Positions 1-26,949 of a stretch of DNA of 29,035 bases are shown here, one piece after another. The stretch's first letter is position 1. Each line of letters opens with the position of its first letter. Source of the stretch: a virus. Below the pieces are notes generated by a model, which made no database searches, was not told the DNA's origin, and saw only the letters and a program-made list of their open reading frames with translations. Both the position numbers and the translations under genes were made by a program. The DNA is taken from the IMG/VR virus record IMGVR_UViG_3300015360_000149, positions 1 through 29,035 of that record. The stretch is one strand, 5' to 3'.

Positions 1-112
1 CTGTTGAACTGATCTGAACTTCCACAAGATTCGTGTTTACCCCCTTGCTTGCAAACTCAAGCAGCGGAAGCAGCATTTCGTTGGGAATGTCTGAGTCATT
101 GTAGACGCGCAT
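1..112 (-). CDS. Leftward gene, 5' end only (runs off the window)
   Basis: An ATG at 112-110 opens a frame that stays open to the edge of the window. It encodes at least 37 residues, beginning MRVYNDSDIPNEMLLPLLEF. A good Shine-Dalgarno AAAAGGAGT lies about 8 nt upstream of the ATG, and a near-consensus promoter lies 46-73 bp further up, so this is a genuine gene start. The visible part is acidic and helical and shows no catalytic motif. Its beginning faintly resembles phage SprT-like putative metallopeptidases, but the metal-binding part would be outside the window, so I assign no function. The start codon sits inside a copy of the 9-mer ATTATGCGC, the half-site of the repeat cluster at 221-310. 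Confidence 0.75.
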   Translation of the reverse strand, partial: MRVYNDSDIPNEMLLPLLEFASKGVNTNLVEVQISST

Positions 113-157: not shown

Positions 158-185
158 AGTATACATAGAACCTATCATTTGTCAA
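158..185 (-). promoter_or_regulatory. Sigma70-like leftward promoter
   Basis: Read on the minus strand, TTGACA (180-185) is followed after 16 bp by TATACT (158-163). These are 6/6 and 5/6 matches to the sigma70 consensus. It lies 46 bp upstream of the ATG at 112 and points at it. The repeat cluster begins 35 bp behind the -35 box, where an activator or repressor could act. Confidence 0.75.
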
Positions 186-220
186 GGGGCTTAGAATGAA
201 GCGCTCTATGGTGTGGGGAC

Positions 221-310
221 GCATAATGCTCTATTATGCGCATAATGCTCTATTATGCGCATAATGCTCTATTATGCGCTATATTATGCGCTAAATACTA
301 TATTATGCGC
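221..310. repeat. Tandem 19-bp palindromic repeats plus half-sites (operator/iteron-like)
   Basis: Three perfect, directly adjacent copies of GCATAATGCTCTATTATGC occupy 221-239, 240-258 and 259-277. Each unit is an inverted repeat (GCATAAT/ATTATGC around GCTCT), and the junctions create two perfect 14-bp palindromes ATTATGCGCATAAT at 233-246 and 252-265. Two further half-sites ATTATGCGC follow at 283-291 and 302-310. On the plus strand the 9-mer thus occurs five times, at 233, 252, 271, 283 and 302. The steps are 19, 19, 12 and 19 bp, close to whole or near-whole helical turns. A multi-site operator, replication iterons or a partition site would all look like this. The closeness to the promoter at 158-185 favours a regulatory role. 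Confidence 0.85.
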
Positions 311-842
311 TATATTGATTACATTTTGTATTATTTTGTGTACTTGTTTAGGTGTAAGCCACGGCTTCTATCCCTCACATCTTTCCGCTGAGCACTGAAC
401 CATGAGCAAGATAAATAAACATATACCCACATTGGATATACACTTATTATATTGTCAATGATCCAGCGTAGCGCAAACTGGATGCAAGAGTGGGGTATCA
501 AAAACTGAAAGAAACGCCTGTCGAAAACAACCTTCTGTGAGGTACCCGTTGATAAGCCGAATCAGCGCGGGTTTTATGGGCGTCTGACAATCAGGAATGG
601 CTACACCTGCTGGACAGCTTGTGAGGCTGCTATCGTTCTGATTATGGAGTTATCCCCACATCATCTTTTCCAGCCATTATTCGGACGACCTACGGTTTTT
701 CTGTTTCTGCGGAACCGTTCGGTTAGTAACGCACGGAATACTTTAATGAGCCGGGGTTTCTTTGCAACTGAAAAACAGAAGATTTTTAACCCCTGAAGCC
801 CTGTAGCACTCTACGTTGGTTTTTGAGTCAAATTCAGACTTG

Positions 843-870
843 TTGACAAGCATAAGTGCTGAAGTATAGG
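843..870 (+). promoter_or_regulatory. Candidate rightward promoter for the membrane-protein genes
   Basis: TTGACA (843-848, full consensus) is followed after 16 bp by TATAGG (865-870, 4/6). TAGGAT at 18 bp spacing is an alternative -10. It lies upstream of the first rightward gene (937). The palindrome at 905-921 would be transcribed in the leader. Confidence 0.5.
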
Positions 871-904
871 ATTTTCATTGTTAAGGGGGGTTTTAACCGC
901 TTTT

Positions 905-936: not shown

Positions 937-1050
937 ATGCCCGTAACCAAGTCTGACGCCAAAGAACAAAAGGCTGACGCCAAAGCGCACAAAGCTGAAG
1001 TTAAGGCGCAGAAATCGGGCACTGTCCGCCGTACTTCCAAGCGTCGTTAA
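937..1050 (+). CDS. Small basic Lys/Ala-rich protein, unknown function
   Basis: A 37-residue frame starts at ATG 937 and reads MPVTKSDAKEQKADAKAHKA and onward, ending in the basic tail RRTSKRR. A purine-rich GGATAGGAC stretch upstream can serve as ribosome-binding site. The repeated D/E-A-K-x-x-K pattern predicts a single, highly charged amphipathic helix, and the C-terminus could bind nucleic acid. It heads the rightward gene set directly behind the palindrome at 905-921. No family was recognised. The gene is short, so the coding call rests on the start context, the helical periodicity and its position. Confidence 0.5.
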   Translation: MPVTKSDAKEQKADAKAHKAEVKAQKSGTVRRTSKRR

Positions 1051-12260: not shown

Positions 12261-12629
12261 TTAGTTGGAAGTTTCCTTTGTTTTGGCGGTCGTTGCAAGC
12301 ATAACCATATCAAGCTGTTTTAGCGTGTTGATTTCCCACGGCTCAAAATCCACACCCATCAGCGCAGAATAGGCGAGAATTTCATTGTATAGAATGGGAA
12401 GTGGGCCTAGCCCGTACTGGCGGGTTTGATTCAATTGAAGGAAGGCTTCCCAAAGGTACAGCAACACAAAGGGAATTTCAGCGTCAGAAAGTTCAGCAGC
12501 TTGCGCAACTTTTTGCCAGCCCTTAGACCGTGAGGCTTGCCGCAGATGGGCTTCTAATGCCACGCCCTTCTCATCTGTTTTGTCCAGCTTGAATCGATCT
12601 TCAGCGGCTGCTAAAAGCTGCGCTATCAG
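12261..12629 (-). CDS. Tail assembly chaperone, GT-type frameshift extension
   Basis: This frame has no good start of its own. The only internal candidate is a GTG at 12563, without a Shine-Dalgarno site. Instead it is the -1 frame continuation of the gene at 12626-13033. After slippage on GGGAAAC the ribosome would continue with LIAQLLAAAEDRFKLDKTDE and reach the stop at 12261, giving a fusion of about 257 residues. The extension carries a helical WEAFLQLNQ segment and EILAYSALMGVDFEPWEINTLKQLD, like DUF1799-type gpT-like tails of chaperones. In lambda, gpG and gpGT load the tape measure and tube subunits, and here too the fusion lies just before the tape measure gene. Confidence 0.8.
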   Translation of the reverse strand: MIAQLLAAAEDRFKLDKTDEKGVALEAHLRQASRSKGWQKVAQAAELSDAEIPFVLLYLWEAFLQLNQTRQYGLGPLPILYNEILAYSALMGVDFEPWEINTLKQLDMVMLATTAKTKETSN

Positions 12630-12635
12630 TTTCCC
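12603..12635 (-). promoter_or_regulatory. Programmed -1 frameshift signal
   Basis: On the minus strand the heptamer GGGAAAC (12629-12635) lies in the exact X-XXY-YYZ phase of the upstream gene (TTG GGA AAC TGA) and directly precedes its stop codon. Four nucleotides later an imperfect hairpin follows: AGCGCAGCT (12616-12624 side) pairs with AGCAGCCGCT (12603-12612), a suitable stimulator. The -1 frame is open for 122 codons. This matches the lambda G/GT arrangement, where the slippery site is GGGAAAG. Confidence 0.85.
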
Positions 12636-13033
12636 AAGAAGTTGCTTCGGTCGTTAAGAAACTCGTCCACTTGTAGGCAGAGCCAGCCACACGCATCGTA
12701 CAGCCTTCTGATGTCATCGGGGCTATCAACGGAGTGTCCTTCAAACTCGACGTTCTCAAGCTCAACCGTAGCCGCTACGCGAAGGGCAGCAGCACTCTCA
12801 ACCAAGCCTTCCACGTCTGCCCCACCGCTTCCCCGGCGTCCCCCAAGCACACTCTTGAGGCTTTTGGTTTGTGCATCTTTTTGCGACTTGAGGGATTCTC
12901 TGGATTCGGGGTTACGCAGCAGGATTCGCACAGTACCACGGGGATCGTCGATGGGCTTTCCGGTTGAGGGGTTGATGACGGTAAGCCACTCGGCCTCTTT
13001 GATGTTTTTGTTGATGTTGGAAAAGTCGGGCAT
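12626..13033 (-). CDS. Tail assembly chaperone, G-type
   Basis: The 135-residue product starts MPDFSNINKNIKEAEWLTVI and then reads NPSTGKPIDDPRGTVRILLR. A basic Lys/Arg-rich stretch and a helical C-terminus (DIRRLYDACGWLCLQVDEFL) follow. Its place between the tail-tube gene and the tape measure, its size, and a slippery heptamer overlapping the last codons identify it as the short chaperone product of the G/GT pair. It would coat the tape measure during tail assembly and be absent from the finished virion. Sequence similarity to named families is weak, so the call rests mainly on context and the frameshift. Confidence 0.8.
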   Translation of the reverse strand: MPDFSNINKNIKEAEWLTVINPSTGKPIDDPRGTVRILLRNPESRESLKSQKDAQTKSLKSVLGGRRGSGGADVEGLVESAAALRVAATVELENVEFEGHSVDSPDDIRRLYDACGWLCLQVDEFLNDRSNFLGN

Positions 13034-22677: not shown

Positions 22678-22690
22678 AATTCTGCGCTCC

Positions 22691-22785: not shown

Positions 22786-23946
22786 TTAACCGGCAAGCCG
22801 GGTGCCAAGTTCGGGGCGAACAACCTTGCTGCCCCAAAGGGCATCCCAAGTCCAAACCGTCTGCATGTGCTGGCGGCTGACTTGCAAACGAAGCGACATA
22901 CCTGATTCAGGATCGGTGATTGATTCAACAATCGGGCCAAGCCCTCGCCCCGTCTGCTCCAACGGGCGTGAGGCAAACACGAAGGCATCACGGTGGAAGG
23001 CCATGTTGACCACATGGGAAGCCTTCACCGTAATCGCTTCAGAGCCAGCCAGAGCCGTTTTCAGCCCCGGATAGATATCCAGTGTCACTGCCGTAGCTGC
23101 CGCAGCCTGCGTTGCAGCAGCGGTCAGTGCGTAGGTCTGGGTGTGCCCGGCAAAGGTGATGATGTCACCTTCCACCAAAGCACACGCACCTGTGCTTGCC
23201 GCAGTCGTGCAGGCGATAGCTTTCAGCCCCACGGCTTGCGCCGTAGCTGCTTTGGCGATTAGCCCCGTGGTGATCGTGCCCGCCGTGTGGGTGGGCATCA
23301 ATTGTGACATCCACCATGAGAAGCCAAATTTCTCGGCCAAGCGGCCCTTCATAATGTCGTCAACTGACACACCAAAGTTCACGTCTTGGAAGTTCCGCAG
23401 CCCCATCGCCATTCCTTCGGCATCGGGGTTCAGCAAAAATCGCCGATCTGACATGGGGGCAAGCTGCTTGTTCAAATTCGTGCGAGCACCAGTGCCAGAG
23501 AGAATTTCGACACCCGTACCGAAAGGCGTGGTGCCCGCCGTGCCGGTGTACCCGAAAAAGGCTTTGTAGTTGCTCAGCACTTGAGTATTGATTGCATTGG
23601 CGAGCGATTTAATGGCTTCTGCCGCCTGCATCGGGAGCACACCCGTTGAGACTTCCATCTGTTGCTTATCCGTTAAGTGGAAATCGACGTATTTCCAGTT
23701 GTCCAGAGTAATGCTGACAGACGTGGGTGCGGCGCTGCTCGGCACGGGGGGCGTATTTGAGGGCACGACATCAGCGGCAGTCATGGCGCTGGGAATCGGC
23801 ACCTGAATCGTCGCTCCCTTTTGTGCAGCATCAATACCATAGTCGCGATTGGCGAGCATGGGGATGGGGCAATACTCGCGAAGCGCCAGAACGCCTTGTG
23901 CAAGCATCTGCGGAATTACATCGTTGATCGAGAATGTGTTTGGCAT
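22786..23946 (-). CDS. Major capsid protein, P22 gp5-like
   Basis: The product has 386 residues with the pattern of the P22 coat protein family (HK97 fold). The N-terminal ALREYCPIPMLANRDYGIDA leads into KGATIQVPIPSAMTAADVVP, then ITLDNWKYVDFHLTDKQ (about residues 75-95). After an inserted domain (about 235-300) comes VVNMAFHRDAFVFASRPLEQ, a hallmark near the family's C-terminus, followed by SGMSLRLQVSRQH. It builds the icosahedral shell. AAAGG lies seven nucleotides before the ATG. The gene stands at the head of the late operon with its own promoter and terminator. Portal, scaffold and protease genes, normally just upstream, are absent here. Confidence 0.88.
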   Translation of the reverse strand: MPNTFSINDVIPQMLAQGVLALREYCPIPMLANRDYGIDAAQKGATIQVPIPSAMTAADVVPSNTPPVPSSAAPTSVSITLDNWKYVDFHLTDKQQMEVSTGVLPMQAAEAIKSLANAINTQVLSNYKAFFGYTGTAGTTPFGTGVEILSGTGARTNLNKQLAPMSDRRFLLNPDAEGMAMGLRNFQDVNFGVSVDDIMKGRLAEKFGFSWWMSQLMPTHTAGTITTGLIAKAATAQAVGLKAIACTTAASTGACALVEGDIITFAGHTQTYALTAAATQAAAATAVTLDIYPGLKTALAGSEAITVKASHVVNMAFHRDAFVFASRPLEQTGRGLGPIVESITDPESGMSLRLQVSRQHMQTVWTWDALWGSKVVRPELGTRLAG

Positions 23947-24146: not shown

Positions 24147-24165
24147 GCGCAGAATGAAAAATAAT

Positions 24166-24662: not shown

Positions 24663-25514
24663 TTAAAAACCTTTGCCAAAATTCGCCCACCGCTTGAAGC
24701 CAAGTTCCTTAAACAGTCCCGCCGCGCGGTGCAGCTTTATGTTTTTCACACTGTACGTCTGCCGCACGCAGGAGATCGGGGCGTCATAGCGCAAGGGAAT
24801 TAACTGCCTTGCCAGTTTGAAAGCGGGTGACAACAAACCAATACGCTCCACGTCAGAAAGCAGTGATTTGCACAGTAGAGCACGGTTGGCTGTTTTGAAT
24901 TTAGTGAGTAGCGCAACCGCACCCTTTTCTCCGATGCCAAGAGCACCTTTTACATTATCCGCAGTATCCCCCACCATGCTGAAATAATCCGTAAGTTGTG
25001 ATAACTCGATCCCATACTTTCGTTCGAGAAATTCTTTGGAAAGCACGCTGTTGGTTTGCAGGCTCAACACTCTGACCATTGGGTAGCCCGCGAGCGTGTA
25101 TAAATCTTTATCATTGCTGACTATGGTGATTTCGAGATCGCTCCACACCACGTTCTTAACCAGAGTGGCAATCAGATCGTCGGCTTCGTACCCCGGCTGC
25201 ATTAAGGTGGGAACTTGCATTATGCGCAGCAGTTCTTTTACGCGCTTGCGCTGGCGTCCGAAGCCTTTTGGTTTTGGCGGGCGCTGCCCCTTGTACGCCG
25301 GGAATAACTTGGTGCGAAATAACGTCTCACGGGGAGCATCGAAAGCCACGGCCACATAATCCAAATTGGCATCCAGCAATCTGAACAGCAGTTGGAAAAA
25401 CTCATTGACTACTTTGGTCGGCTCGCCCGATGGAGATGTAAGTTCCGGTGAACGTGAATAAAACGCTCGGTAAAGTACCGCGTTAGCATCAATAATTGCA
25501 AGTTGCTTATTCAT
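24663..25514 (-). CDS. Free-standing 5'-3' exonuclease (PolA N-terminal/FEN family)
   Basis: The product has 283 residues from ATG 25514. ATG 25538 would add eight residues not typical of the family. Conserved acidic metal ligands are visible: Asp9 (IIDANAVLYRAF), Asp59 (VAFDAPRETLFR), Glu110/Asp112/Asp113 (GYEADDLIATL), Asp135/Asp137 (SNDKDLY) and Asp183/Asp186 (GDTADNVKG). A helix-hairpin-helix GALGIGEKGAVALL follows. The basic AYKGQRPPKP segment is also intact. The enzyme removes RNA primers and flaps during replication. No polymerase domain is fused to it, as in phage T5/T7-type enzymes. The gene is coupled to its neighbours on both sides. Confidence 0.92.
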   Translation of the reverse strand: MNKQLAIIDANAVLYRAFYSRSPELTSPSGEPTKVVNEFFQLLFRLLDANLDYVAVAFDAPRETLFRTKLFPAYKGQRPPKPKGFGRQRKRVKELLRIMQVPTLMQPGYEADDLIATLVKNVVWSDLEITIVSNDKDLYTLAGYPMVRVLSLQTNSVLSKEFLERKYGIELSQLTDYFSMVGDTADNVKGALGIGEKGAVALLTKFKTANRALLCKSLLSDVERIGLLSPAFKLARQLIPLRYDAPISCVRQTYSVKNIKLHRAAGLFKELGFKRWANFGKGF

Positions 25515-25737: not shown

Positions 25738-26036
25738 CAACTTAGCCGCCTACGCTTCTTTATTGCTGAAGGCTTCTCGGAAAACCACTGCGCATAATGC
25801 TCATCCCAAACAGTAATAAGCCTAGCCATGATTTCCTCTATGCCCTCATCGTCCAGAGGAATGATTGCATCGGCGGGCAGTATCCGGGGGTCAAGCCAAT
25901 GGTGCTCTATCCACTTCTCAATAGCCTTTGACGCGGGACGCCCCATTCGTCGATCAAGACTTAAAATCAAAGTGAACAGTGCTCTTGGCGACAGCCTGCC
26001 AAGCTCTCCGCAGGGGATTCTTTTCACACTATTCAA
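25737..26036 (-). CDS. Hypothetical protein
   Basis: I place the start at TTG 26036. AAAGGAG lies eight nucleotides upstream, and the codon overlaps the HNH stop as TTGA. The in-frame GTG at 26045 has the same Shine-Dalgarno directly against it, with no spacer. The product of 99 residues is helical (SPRALFTLILSLDRRMG, KAIEKWIEHHWLDPRIL, GIEEIMARLITVWDEHYAQW) and ends in a basic KKRRRLS tail. No family is recognised. It sits in a run of overlapping small genes. Confidence 0.6.
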   Translation of the reverse strand: MNSVKRIPCGELGRLSPRALFTLILSLDRRMGRPASKAIEKWIEHHWLDPRILPADAIIPLDDEGIEEIMARLITVWDEHYAQWFSEKPSAIKKRRRLS

Positions 26037-26389
26037 AAAGGGCACTCCTTTGCTTTGAAGCTGGTGCTGTTAAATGAGTTGGCGGCTTTCGTTTCAGGCT
26101 GCATGTGGTCGGGATTCACACAACAGGGATTTTTACACAGATGATGGGCTTCCATGCCATACTCCAACGGGCCGGTGAAGGCTTGGATCGACCAACGATG
26201 CGCCCAAACCATTTTACCCTGATACCAAAATTGCCCGTATCCCTTTTTGTCTTTGTAGGCTTTCCAAAACCAGCAGCCGGTTTCCACATTCACTTTTACT
26301 TTTGAAAGAAAGCGGATGATTTCAGACGGCAGGGGGCGCTGAGTCAACGGTATCCCCGGATGCAGCCTTATTCGCCGTTTGCGTTTCAT
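26033..26389 (-). CDS. HNH endonuclease
   Basis: The 118-residue product contains the phage HNH pattern. GCWFWKAYKDKKGYGQF (38-54) and AHRWSIQAFTGPL (63-75) precede the core EAHHLCKNPCCVNPDHMQP (80-97), with His82/83, Cys85, Cys89, Cys90, Asn92 and His95. Such small proteins nick or cut DNA and often behave as homing or free-standing mobile genes in phages. Its first 68 bp overlap the 3' end of csrA in another frame. No ATG lies between its start and the conserved core, so this overlap seems real. The downstream gene is coupled by TTGA. Confidence 0.88.
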   Translation of the reverse strand: MKRKRRIRLHPGIPLTQRPLPSEIIRFLSKVKVNVETGCWFWKAYKDKKGYGQFWYQGKMVWAHRWSIQAFTGPLEYGMEAHHLCKNPCCVNPDHMQPETKAANSFNSTSFKAKECPF

Positions 26390-26570
26390 TGTTTAATCTT
26401 GCATTTCTTATGGATTCCCACACTTCAAAGCGGTAGATAGGCAGACCCTTTGGTGCGTTAATGCCAATCCGAACCTTACCCCCATCAACAGCGACCACAA
26501 CAATTTCAATGTCCCCGTCACTCGAACCAATCATAATGGACTCATCGGTGCGGCGGGTTAAAACCAACAT
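26322..26570 (-). CDS. csrA: CsrA/RsmA-type RNA-binding regulator with a C-terminal tail
   Basis: The 82-residue product starts MLVLTRRTDESIMIG and continues VRIGINAPKGLPIYRFEVW. This is a full CsrA fold including the RNA-contacting N-terminal strand (Leu4, Arg6, Arg7) and the Arg47 equivalent of E. coli Arg44. CsrA dimers bind GGA motifs in mRNA leaders and change translation and stability. A phage copy could redirect host metabolism or control phage messages. The family ends near residue 61. Here about 21 more residues (ETQTANKAASGDTVDSAPPA) are encoded exactly where the gene overlaps the HNH gene. AAAGGAG precedes the ATG, and the start overlaps the upstream gene by 29 bp. Confidence 0.92.
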   Translation of the reverse strand: MLVLTRRTDESIMIGSSDGDIEIVVVAVDGGKVRIGINAPKGLPIYRFEVWESIRNARLNNETQTANKAASGDTVDSAPPAV

Positions 26571-26949
26571 GCGATTCTCCTTTCAGTAAAGCCTCAATGC
26601 GTTGCCTGATAACCCTGTCAGCCTCATACAACCACCCGTCATAATCCCCAAGCAAATACCCCTCAGTAATGGCACGGTGCTCCTGTAAAAACATGGTTTT
26701 TTTCTCATCAGATAAATTCAACCTTTCAACCGTAACTTCAGAGAGCTTCAGATAGATCGCCAAAGCGTAACGTGCCCAAACCATCTCGTCTCGCGCATAA
26801 TTTCGATGAGGCGTATCGAGCCTTTTGGAAACGGAATCCATCCGGCGCTGTAGGCGTTCTTCCGTTGTTTCTTCAAGTGGTGAAATGAAGTCCAGCCCCA
26901 CAAGAGAGGGGTCATTCAAGGGCACGCTGTAGATTTCAAGGTCGTTCAT
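26542..26949 (-). CDS. Hypothetical helical protein
   Basis: The ATG at 26949 overlaps the 3' end of the cysteine-cluster gene by 14 bp. The longer frame up to 27057 would run far into that gene and is rejected. The 135 residues begin MNDLEIYSVPLNDPSLVGLD. They are mostly helical and charged (EETTEERLQRRMDSVSKRL, NLSDEKKTMFLQEHRAITEG, LYEADRVIRQRIEALLKG). No known motif is visible. Its end overlaps csrA by 29 bp, so the two are probably translated together. Confidence 0.65.
   Translation of the reverse strand: MNDLEIYSVPLNDPSLVGLDFISPLEETTEERLQRRMDSVSKRLDTPHRNYARDEMVWARYALAIYLKLSEVTVERLNLSDEKKTMFLQEHRAITEGYLLGDYDGWLYEADRVIRQRIEALLKGESHVGFNPPHR

Follow-up and report, generated by a model that had tools for sequence, protein, structure and literature searches.

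What is a compact row of short palindromic sites doing immediately behind a near-consensus leftward promoter in a freshwater phage? The row lies in the window, i.e., the whole stretch of DNA that was analysed, a 29,035-bp IMG/VR virus record dominated by tail and structural genes on the minus strand; a coat-like protein encoded at 22786–23946 is 45% identical to a region of Vibrio phage MAR10 annotated as major capsid protein. Our answer is that this is a real array, conserved in a close relative, and probably an origin of a familiar type. The genome-wide echo of the array core is the part that is unfamiliar and unusual.

The architecture proposed in a sequence-only reading of the window was re-read base for base and is as described there. 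Three adjacent perfect units of GCATAATGCTCTATTATGC occupy positions 221–239, 240–258, and 259–277, and enclose two 14-bp palindromes, ATTATGCGCATAAT; two extra half-sites follow at 283–291 and 302–310. The five same-strand 9-mers, ATTATGCGC, start at 233, 252, 271, 283, and 302 (steps of 19, 19, 12, and 19 bp), and the 35-bp gap is likewise confirmed, as the -35 element of the minus-strand promoter starts at 185 and the repeat units at base 221. The array is described more simply as a row of roughly palindromic 14-bp sites with GCGC in the middle: five are intact (centres at 238–241, 257–260, 276–279, 288–291, and 307–310), and a damaged one, GACGCATAATG, precedes them at about 218–228. Counting both strands, ATTATGCGC occurs seven times within 90 bp, whereas in 20 dinucleotide-preserving shuffles of the window any 9-mer reached at most 2–3 copies per 90 bp; the array is thus far above chance expectation. 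Tandem Repeats Finder scores it at 120 for a period of 19 and at 105 for a period of 31. Reading the array hairpins as terminators was rejected, as the T-tails are weak and the stems are a by-product of the palindromes.

Table 1 Features of the window around the repeat array and example sites of the dispersed core word.
Feature	Position	Strand	Basis or remark
First leftward gene, start MRVYNDSDIPNEM...	1..112	-	Cut by the left end of the window
Sigma-70-type promoter TTGACA-16-TATACT	158..185	-	Reads left, away from the array; identical in G001
Repeat array of GCGC-centred 14-bp (semi)palindromes	218..316	none	Sequence and repeat tools; same array in G001
Perfect palindrome ATTATGCGCATAAT, copy 1	233..246	none	Sequence
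Perfect palindrome ATTATGCGCATAAT, copy 2	252..265	none	Sequence
50-bp stretch with the highest AT content in the window (80%), candidate DNA unwinding element	292..341	none	Right edge of the array and beyond
Apparently non-coding, hypervariable right flank	317..805	none	BLASTN of window against G001, no similarity
Rightward promoter-like site TTGACA-18-TAGGAT	843..872	+	Conserved in G001
Example TTMTGCGC site	22680..22687	+
Example TTMTGCGC site	24147..24154	-
Example TTMTGCGC site	25220..25227	+
Example TTMTGCGC site	25790..25797	-
Example TTMTGCGC site	26793..26800	-

The one close relative found in the collections searched is IMGVR_UViG_3300020195_000035 (hereafter G001; 51,453 bp), which is 99.6% identical to the window over 11.7 kb. 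A second contig of 6.7 kb from another sample matches G001 at 99.4%, and the evidence on the array comes from one independent lineage sampled. Loss or degeneration of the array in close relatives had been named as grounds for abandoning it, and neither was found: G001 keeps the array and enlarges it, with eleven GCGC centres at 33152–33317 (steps of 19, 19, 12, 19, 12, 19, 12, 19, 12, and 19 bp), copy numbers in both cases being taken from short-read assemblies and possibly inexact. It stands behind an identical promoter with identical spacing, and register and flank are common to both contigs. The alternating steps of 19 and 12 bp in G001 amount to a regular period of 31 bp, or about three helical turns, so that array sites of one class are on the same side of the helix.

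To the left of the array the window and G001 are nearly identical. To the right, the corresponding G001 segment of about 458 bp is unrelated to the window by BLASTN, and the array thus borders a hypervariable, apparently non-coding segment, beyond which both genomes rejoin at a common promoter and a plus-strand cluster of small genes (937–2064 in the window). The first gene of this cluster encodes 37 aa in the window (937–1050) and 126 aa in G001 (33922–34302); since start and end are common to both copies, the window copy looks internally shortened.

The sequence-only reading had stated that no neighbouring feature explains the array, which is wrong on two counts. First, the adjacent promoter opens a replication gene cluster, as seen in G001, where the leftward run comprises a weakly metallopeptidase-like protein, small proteins including a weak HTH protein, a DnaB-like helicase, an SNF2-type helicase, primase, clamp, PolA, clamp loader, a gp32-like protein, UvsX, and SbcCD. 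The first gene of the run, whose full-length copy in G001 has a weak resemblance to DUF6782 metallopeptidases, has its start codon within a TTATGCGC. The replication module is collinear with that of MAR10 at protein identities of 20–45%, and further genes of the leftward run in G001 encode TerS, TerL with an intein match, portal, and a minor head protein. No integrase or repressor was recognised among the scanned proteins of the window and G001, and from these incomplete genomes the phage looks lytic. Rfam and tRNA scans gave no matches, and no DnaA boxes were found close to the array.

Second, the most AT-rich stretch of the genome begins at the array. In both whole records the top 50, 100, and 200 bp by AT content are found at the array or at its right edge. 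Part of this signal comes from the array, which has a high AT content of its own; outside it, the window flank at 311–360 has 74% AT (top 0.2% of 50-mers) and the G001 flank at 33324–33373 has 70% (top 0.4%), and these two flanks are unrelated in sequence. Composition also differs across the array on a larger scale. Minus-strand genes are present on both sides, and their GC skew at fourfold sites is 0.158 on the left (24 genes) vs. 0.053 on the right (23 genes; gene-permutation p 0.0002), a difference to be expected if forks set out both ways from the array region, but one that could stem from expression instead of fork direction.

Taking these observations together, we tentatively regard the array as most likely the replication origin of the phage, of the iteron type (array plus unwinding element), perhaps with an additional role in promoter regulation. 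Iteron origins have multiple tandem copies of a site of roughly 17–22 bp next to an AT-rich unwinding element; here there are five intact sites in the window and eleven in G001, with a candidate element defined by AT content. One of the two steps, 19 bp, is of this order and the other, 12 bp, is shorter than usual for iterons. A phage initiator would bind the cluster cooperatively, on one helix face, and its binding would melt the adjoining AT-rich stretch, which in turn would allow the phage's own DnaB-type helicase to be loaded, and replication would thus start at the array. The gene for the initiator probably belongs to the leftward replication run, the start of which lies 110 bp from the array, and the bound protein may in addition adjust the activity of the adjacent promoter. 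For initiator and loader the candidates are a winged-HTH-like protein of 109 aa (G001 31472–31801) and a helical protein of 172 aa (G001 31006–31524), the genes of which sit just upstream of DnaB in G001. The former, encoded 1.4 kb from the G001 array, matches Pfam HTH_17 at an E value of 0.044 only. No initiator was identified by homology: neither protein has a convincing homologue or detectable sequence similarity to solved initiator or loader structures, and their AlphaFold models are unusable (pLDDT of 45 and 40). Should the array be an origin, it would provide an origin layout and a candidate initiator–loader pair for a phage group in which no close relative has been cultured.

Lambdoid origins combine iterons with an AT-rich tract, with four iterons in lambda and six in Stx phages (PMC7466680); the lambda database record annotates four iterons of 18 bp. 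These origins resemble the present locus in having tandem palindromic sites spaced by about 18–20 bp beside an AT-rich stretch in the replication region, and in that iteron number varies between close relatives (PMC7466680), as the number of array sites does here. In contrast, the array is intergenic, has 5–11 sites with alternating 19/12 spacing, and belongs to a phage with its own DnaB, with no O or P homologue recognised, and with the core dispersed genome-wide. SPP1 origins consist of direct repeats and an AT-rich unwinding element, one of them within the initiator gene 38, and gp38, gp39, and gp40 are initiator, loader, and DnaB, respectively (PMC6316719). The likeness to SPP1 oriL and oriR extends to the repeats, the AT-rich element, and a phage DnaB preceded by two small replication-cluster genes (PMC6316719), whereas the small genes here are without detectable similarity to solved initiators or loaders and there is one array, which is intergenic. 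The iterons of RepA_N-type systems (PLE satellite and staphylococcal plasmids) are semi-palindromic direct repeats bound by the initiator (PMC7145576); those in the array are semi-palindromic direct repeats as well, but unrelated in sequence, and no RepA_N initiator was recognised. By analogy with lambda and SPP1 oriL, which lie within an initiator gene, the intergenic position of the array would count against an origin.

A comparable array was also sought in other genomes. None was present in about 17 distant relatives (DnaB 29–37% identical) over flanks of up to 8 kb around DnaB, which would likewise count against the origin reading; the clusters that were detected near DnaB in those relatives resemble coding repeats, or in the MAR10 group consist of its own scattered word. 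Among 50,697 phage records no phage related to the window by DNA was found, and in IMG/VR the array pattern occurs in G001 only. Four other IMG/VR matches to triple half-sites turned out to be unrelated tandem repeats, and nine matches to GCGCATAAT-N5-ATTATGCGC are single sites within a different, longer palindrome, apparently from one other phage family. Contigs of the latter kind (L020–L028) carry a single palindrome, GCGCATAATCTNAGATTATGCGC or close variants, in an operator-like position before a short gene, with TACGC/GCGTA flanking arms in some of the nine. The array pattern was absent from 84,980 bacterial and archaeal species except for one Dehalococcoidales MAG with a single site, and no array, ahead of a tRNA gene; in this MAG the core word is only about 1.5 times as frequent as the control (125 vs. 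82).

An origin alone leaves unexplained the roughly 50 copies of the array core that are dispersed over the genome. Outside the array, 63.8 kb of non-redundant sequence contains 25 copies of the core, TTATGCGC, vs. 2.6 expected and 27 copies of TTCTGCGC vs. 3.7 expected, giving about 50 dispersed TTMTGCGC sites overall, 19 of which are in the window. Five examples between 22680 and 26800 (Table 1) lie in a part of the window absent from the sequence shared with G001. Under an order-3 model with local repeats discounted, TTATGCGC is the top-ranking word in both genomes (among 21,548 8-mers in G001), and TTCTGCGC comes fifth in G001 and second in the window; in an order-2 ranking both lead the dispersed 8-mers except for repeats coding for Asp/Glu tracts. 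Nearly all other single changes across the eight positions are at or close to background, with a mild, two- to threefold excess of TGATGCGC, TTAAGCGC, and TTGTGCGC. The sites occur on both strands and in all frames, mainly within genes, and the 41 coding copies compare with 6.4 on average (sd 2.2, maximum 14) across 300 synonymous-codon shuffles, so that they cannot be put down to protein sequence or codon choice. The reversed word has one copy vs. 2.9 expected, the arms of the array palindromes (CATAATGC and TATTATG) are not enriched outside the array, and neither the distant relatives MW202864 and L031 nor 20 kb of E. coli show an excess of the TTATGCGC/TTCTGCGC pair; smaller contigs chosen for containing the word are no control for enrichment. 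Conservation between the window and G001 is uninformative (12 of 13 sites vs. 91% background). Orientation is not used as evidence, since 34 of the 52 dispersed sites point towards the array at a p value of 0.04 and the best change point lies elsewhere.

The sharper point is that the core of the array and the foremost dispersed word of the genome are one and the same. A localised control site is thereby tied to a signal that spans the genome of a lytic-looking phage. This identity suggests that one factor may recognise both the array and the dispersed sites and, more generally, that phages may label their genomes with short words for which they have a dedicated reader protein. MAR10 (JX556418) has a word of its own: the first 50 kb contain 161 copies of TTASTAAA (82 and 79 for the two forms, each against an expectation of about 5.4), both inside genes and between them and frequently in the palindromic form TTTASTAAA, and its gene MAR10_085 is annotated as ParB-like. 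A literature search on TTASTAAA found nothing. It is conceivable, if somewhat unlikely, that a single phage-encoded protein reads TTMTGCGC in the array and at about 50 genome sites as a genome-wide addressing system, with an origin or loading site and scattered stations, and that the MAR10 lineage does likewise with TTASTAAA and its ParB-like protein. The stoperators of Cluster A mycobacteriophages are also short sites scattered across a phage genome (PMC6550527). However, they are 13 bp long and mostly in one orientation to transcription, as oriented sites for the repressor of a temperate phage, whereas here an 8-mer occurs on both strands and in all frames, mostly in coding sequence, together with a dense array.

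The main rival to an origin, which might act alone or alongside one and is unlikely in our view as the explanation of the array, is a multi-site regulatory array in which several dimers of a phage activator or repressor would control the leftward replication promoter through contact with RNA polymerase or looping, possibly as autoregulation. Palindromic sites of 14 bp, such as those of the array, are typical dimer sites, and the spacing to the -35 element and the promoter shared with G001 as well as a period that puts the sites on roughly one helix face would suit such control. However, the sites are upstream of the promoter and not over it, and simple blocking is therefore impossible; TTGACA and TATACT make a promoter that hardly needs activation, sixteen half-sites would be a large number for an operator, and the AT-rich neighbour and the skew difference are left unaccounted for. 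Of the three architectures originally proposed (multi-dimer operator, iteron origin, and partition site), position, AT-rich neighbour, and skew favour the iteron origin over a plain operator, and the partition site lacks a recognised ParB or ParA.

A related and distinctly improbable explanation is a nucleation or centromere-like site, where a phage protein recognising TTMTGCGC would load at the array and the roughly 50 other sites in order to organise, segregate, or protect phage DNA. The rank of TTATGCGC and TTCTGCGC among dispersed 8-mers, their spread over strands and frames, and their excess in coding sequence are what such a protein would be expected to leave, and MAR10, with its collinear replication module, pairs a different dispersed word with a ParB-like gene. 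Yet BLAST with MAR10_085 and Pfam searches of the scanned proteins found no ParB-like protein in the window or G001, and no ParA was recognised among them, so that the ParB and ParA genes that accompany a ParABS site were not recognised beside the array in an assembled genome that may be incomplete. Moreover, the array holds the A form of the degenerate base only, and the scattered word could instead reflect the DNA of the host.

It is very unlikely that the array is a palindromic repeat that expanded without having a function, or that it arose in assembly: its copy number differs between two near-identical phages, and assemblers can mis-count tandem units shorter than a read, but two separate contigs carry it in the same flank and register, and the core is exact across units while spacer bases vary and is enriched elsewhere too. 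Least credible is a pac-like packaging site with the terminase small subunit binding the repeats. Some TerS proteins do bind repeated sites and the 109-aa HTH protein is very weakly like TerS DNA-binding domains (E 0.035–0.64), but the recognised TerS (phrog_4102, E 5e-17; G001 12398–12853) and TerL are about 20 kb from the G001 array and not at or near it.

Further features of the two genomes deserve mention in their own right. A phage-borne CsrA homologue (26322–26570 in the window, Pfam E 1.5e-21) adjoins an overlapping HNH endonuclease gene, and the large terminase gene of G001 (L011 10577–12382) matches an intein splicing domain (E 1.2e-7) in the stretch between its terminase parts. The replication cluster of G001 encodes, between clamp and primase, a highly acidic, Asp/Glu-rich protein (L012 5395–6405) with N-terminal similarity to a MAR10 protein. 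The early region of G001 (L011 1–6100) carries at least six copies, on both strands, of near-identical promoters of the form AGCGCTTGACA-17-TATAATGGGAGCATAAC, a family to which the promoter beside the array does not belong.
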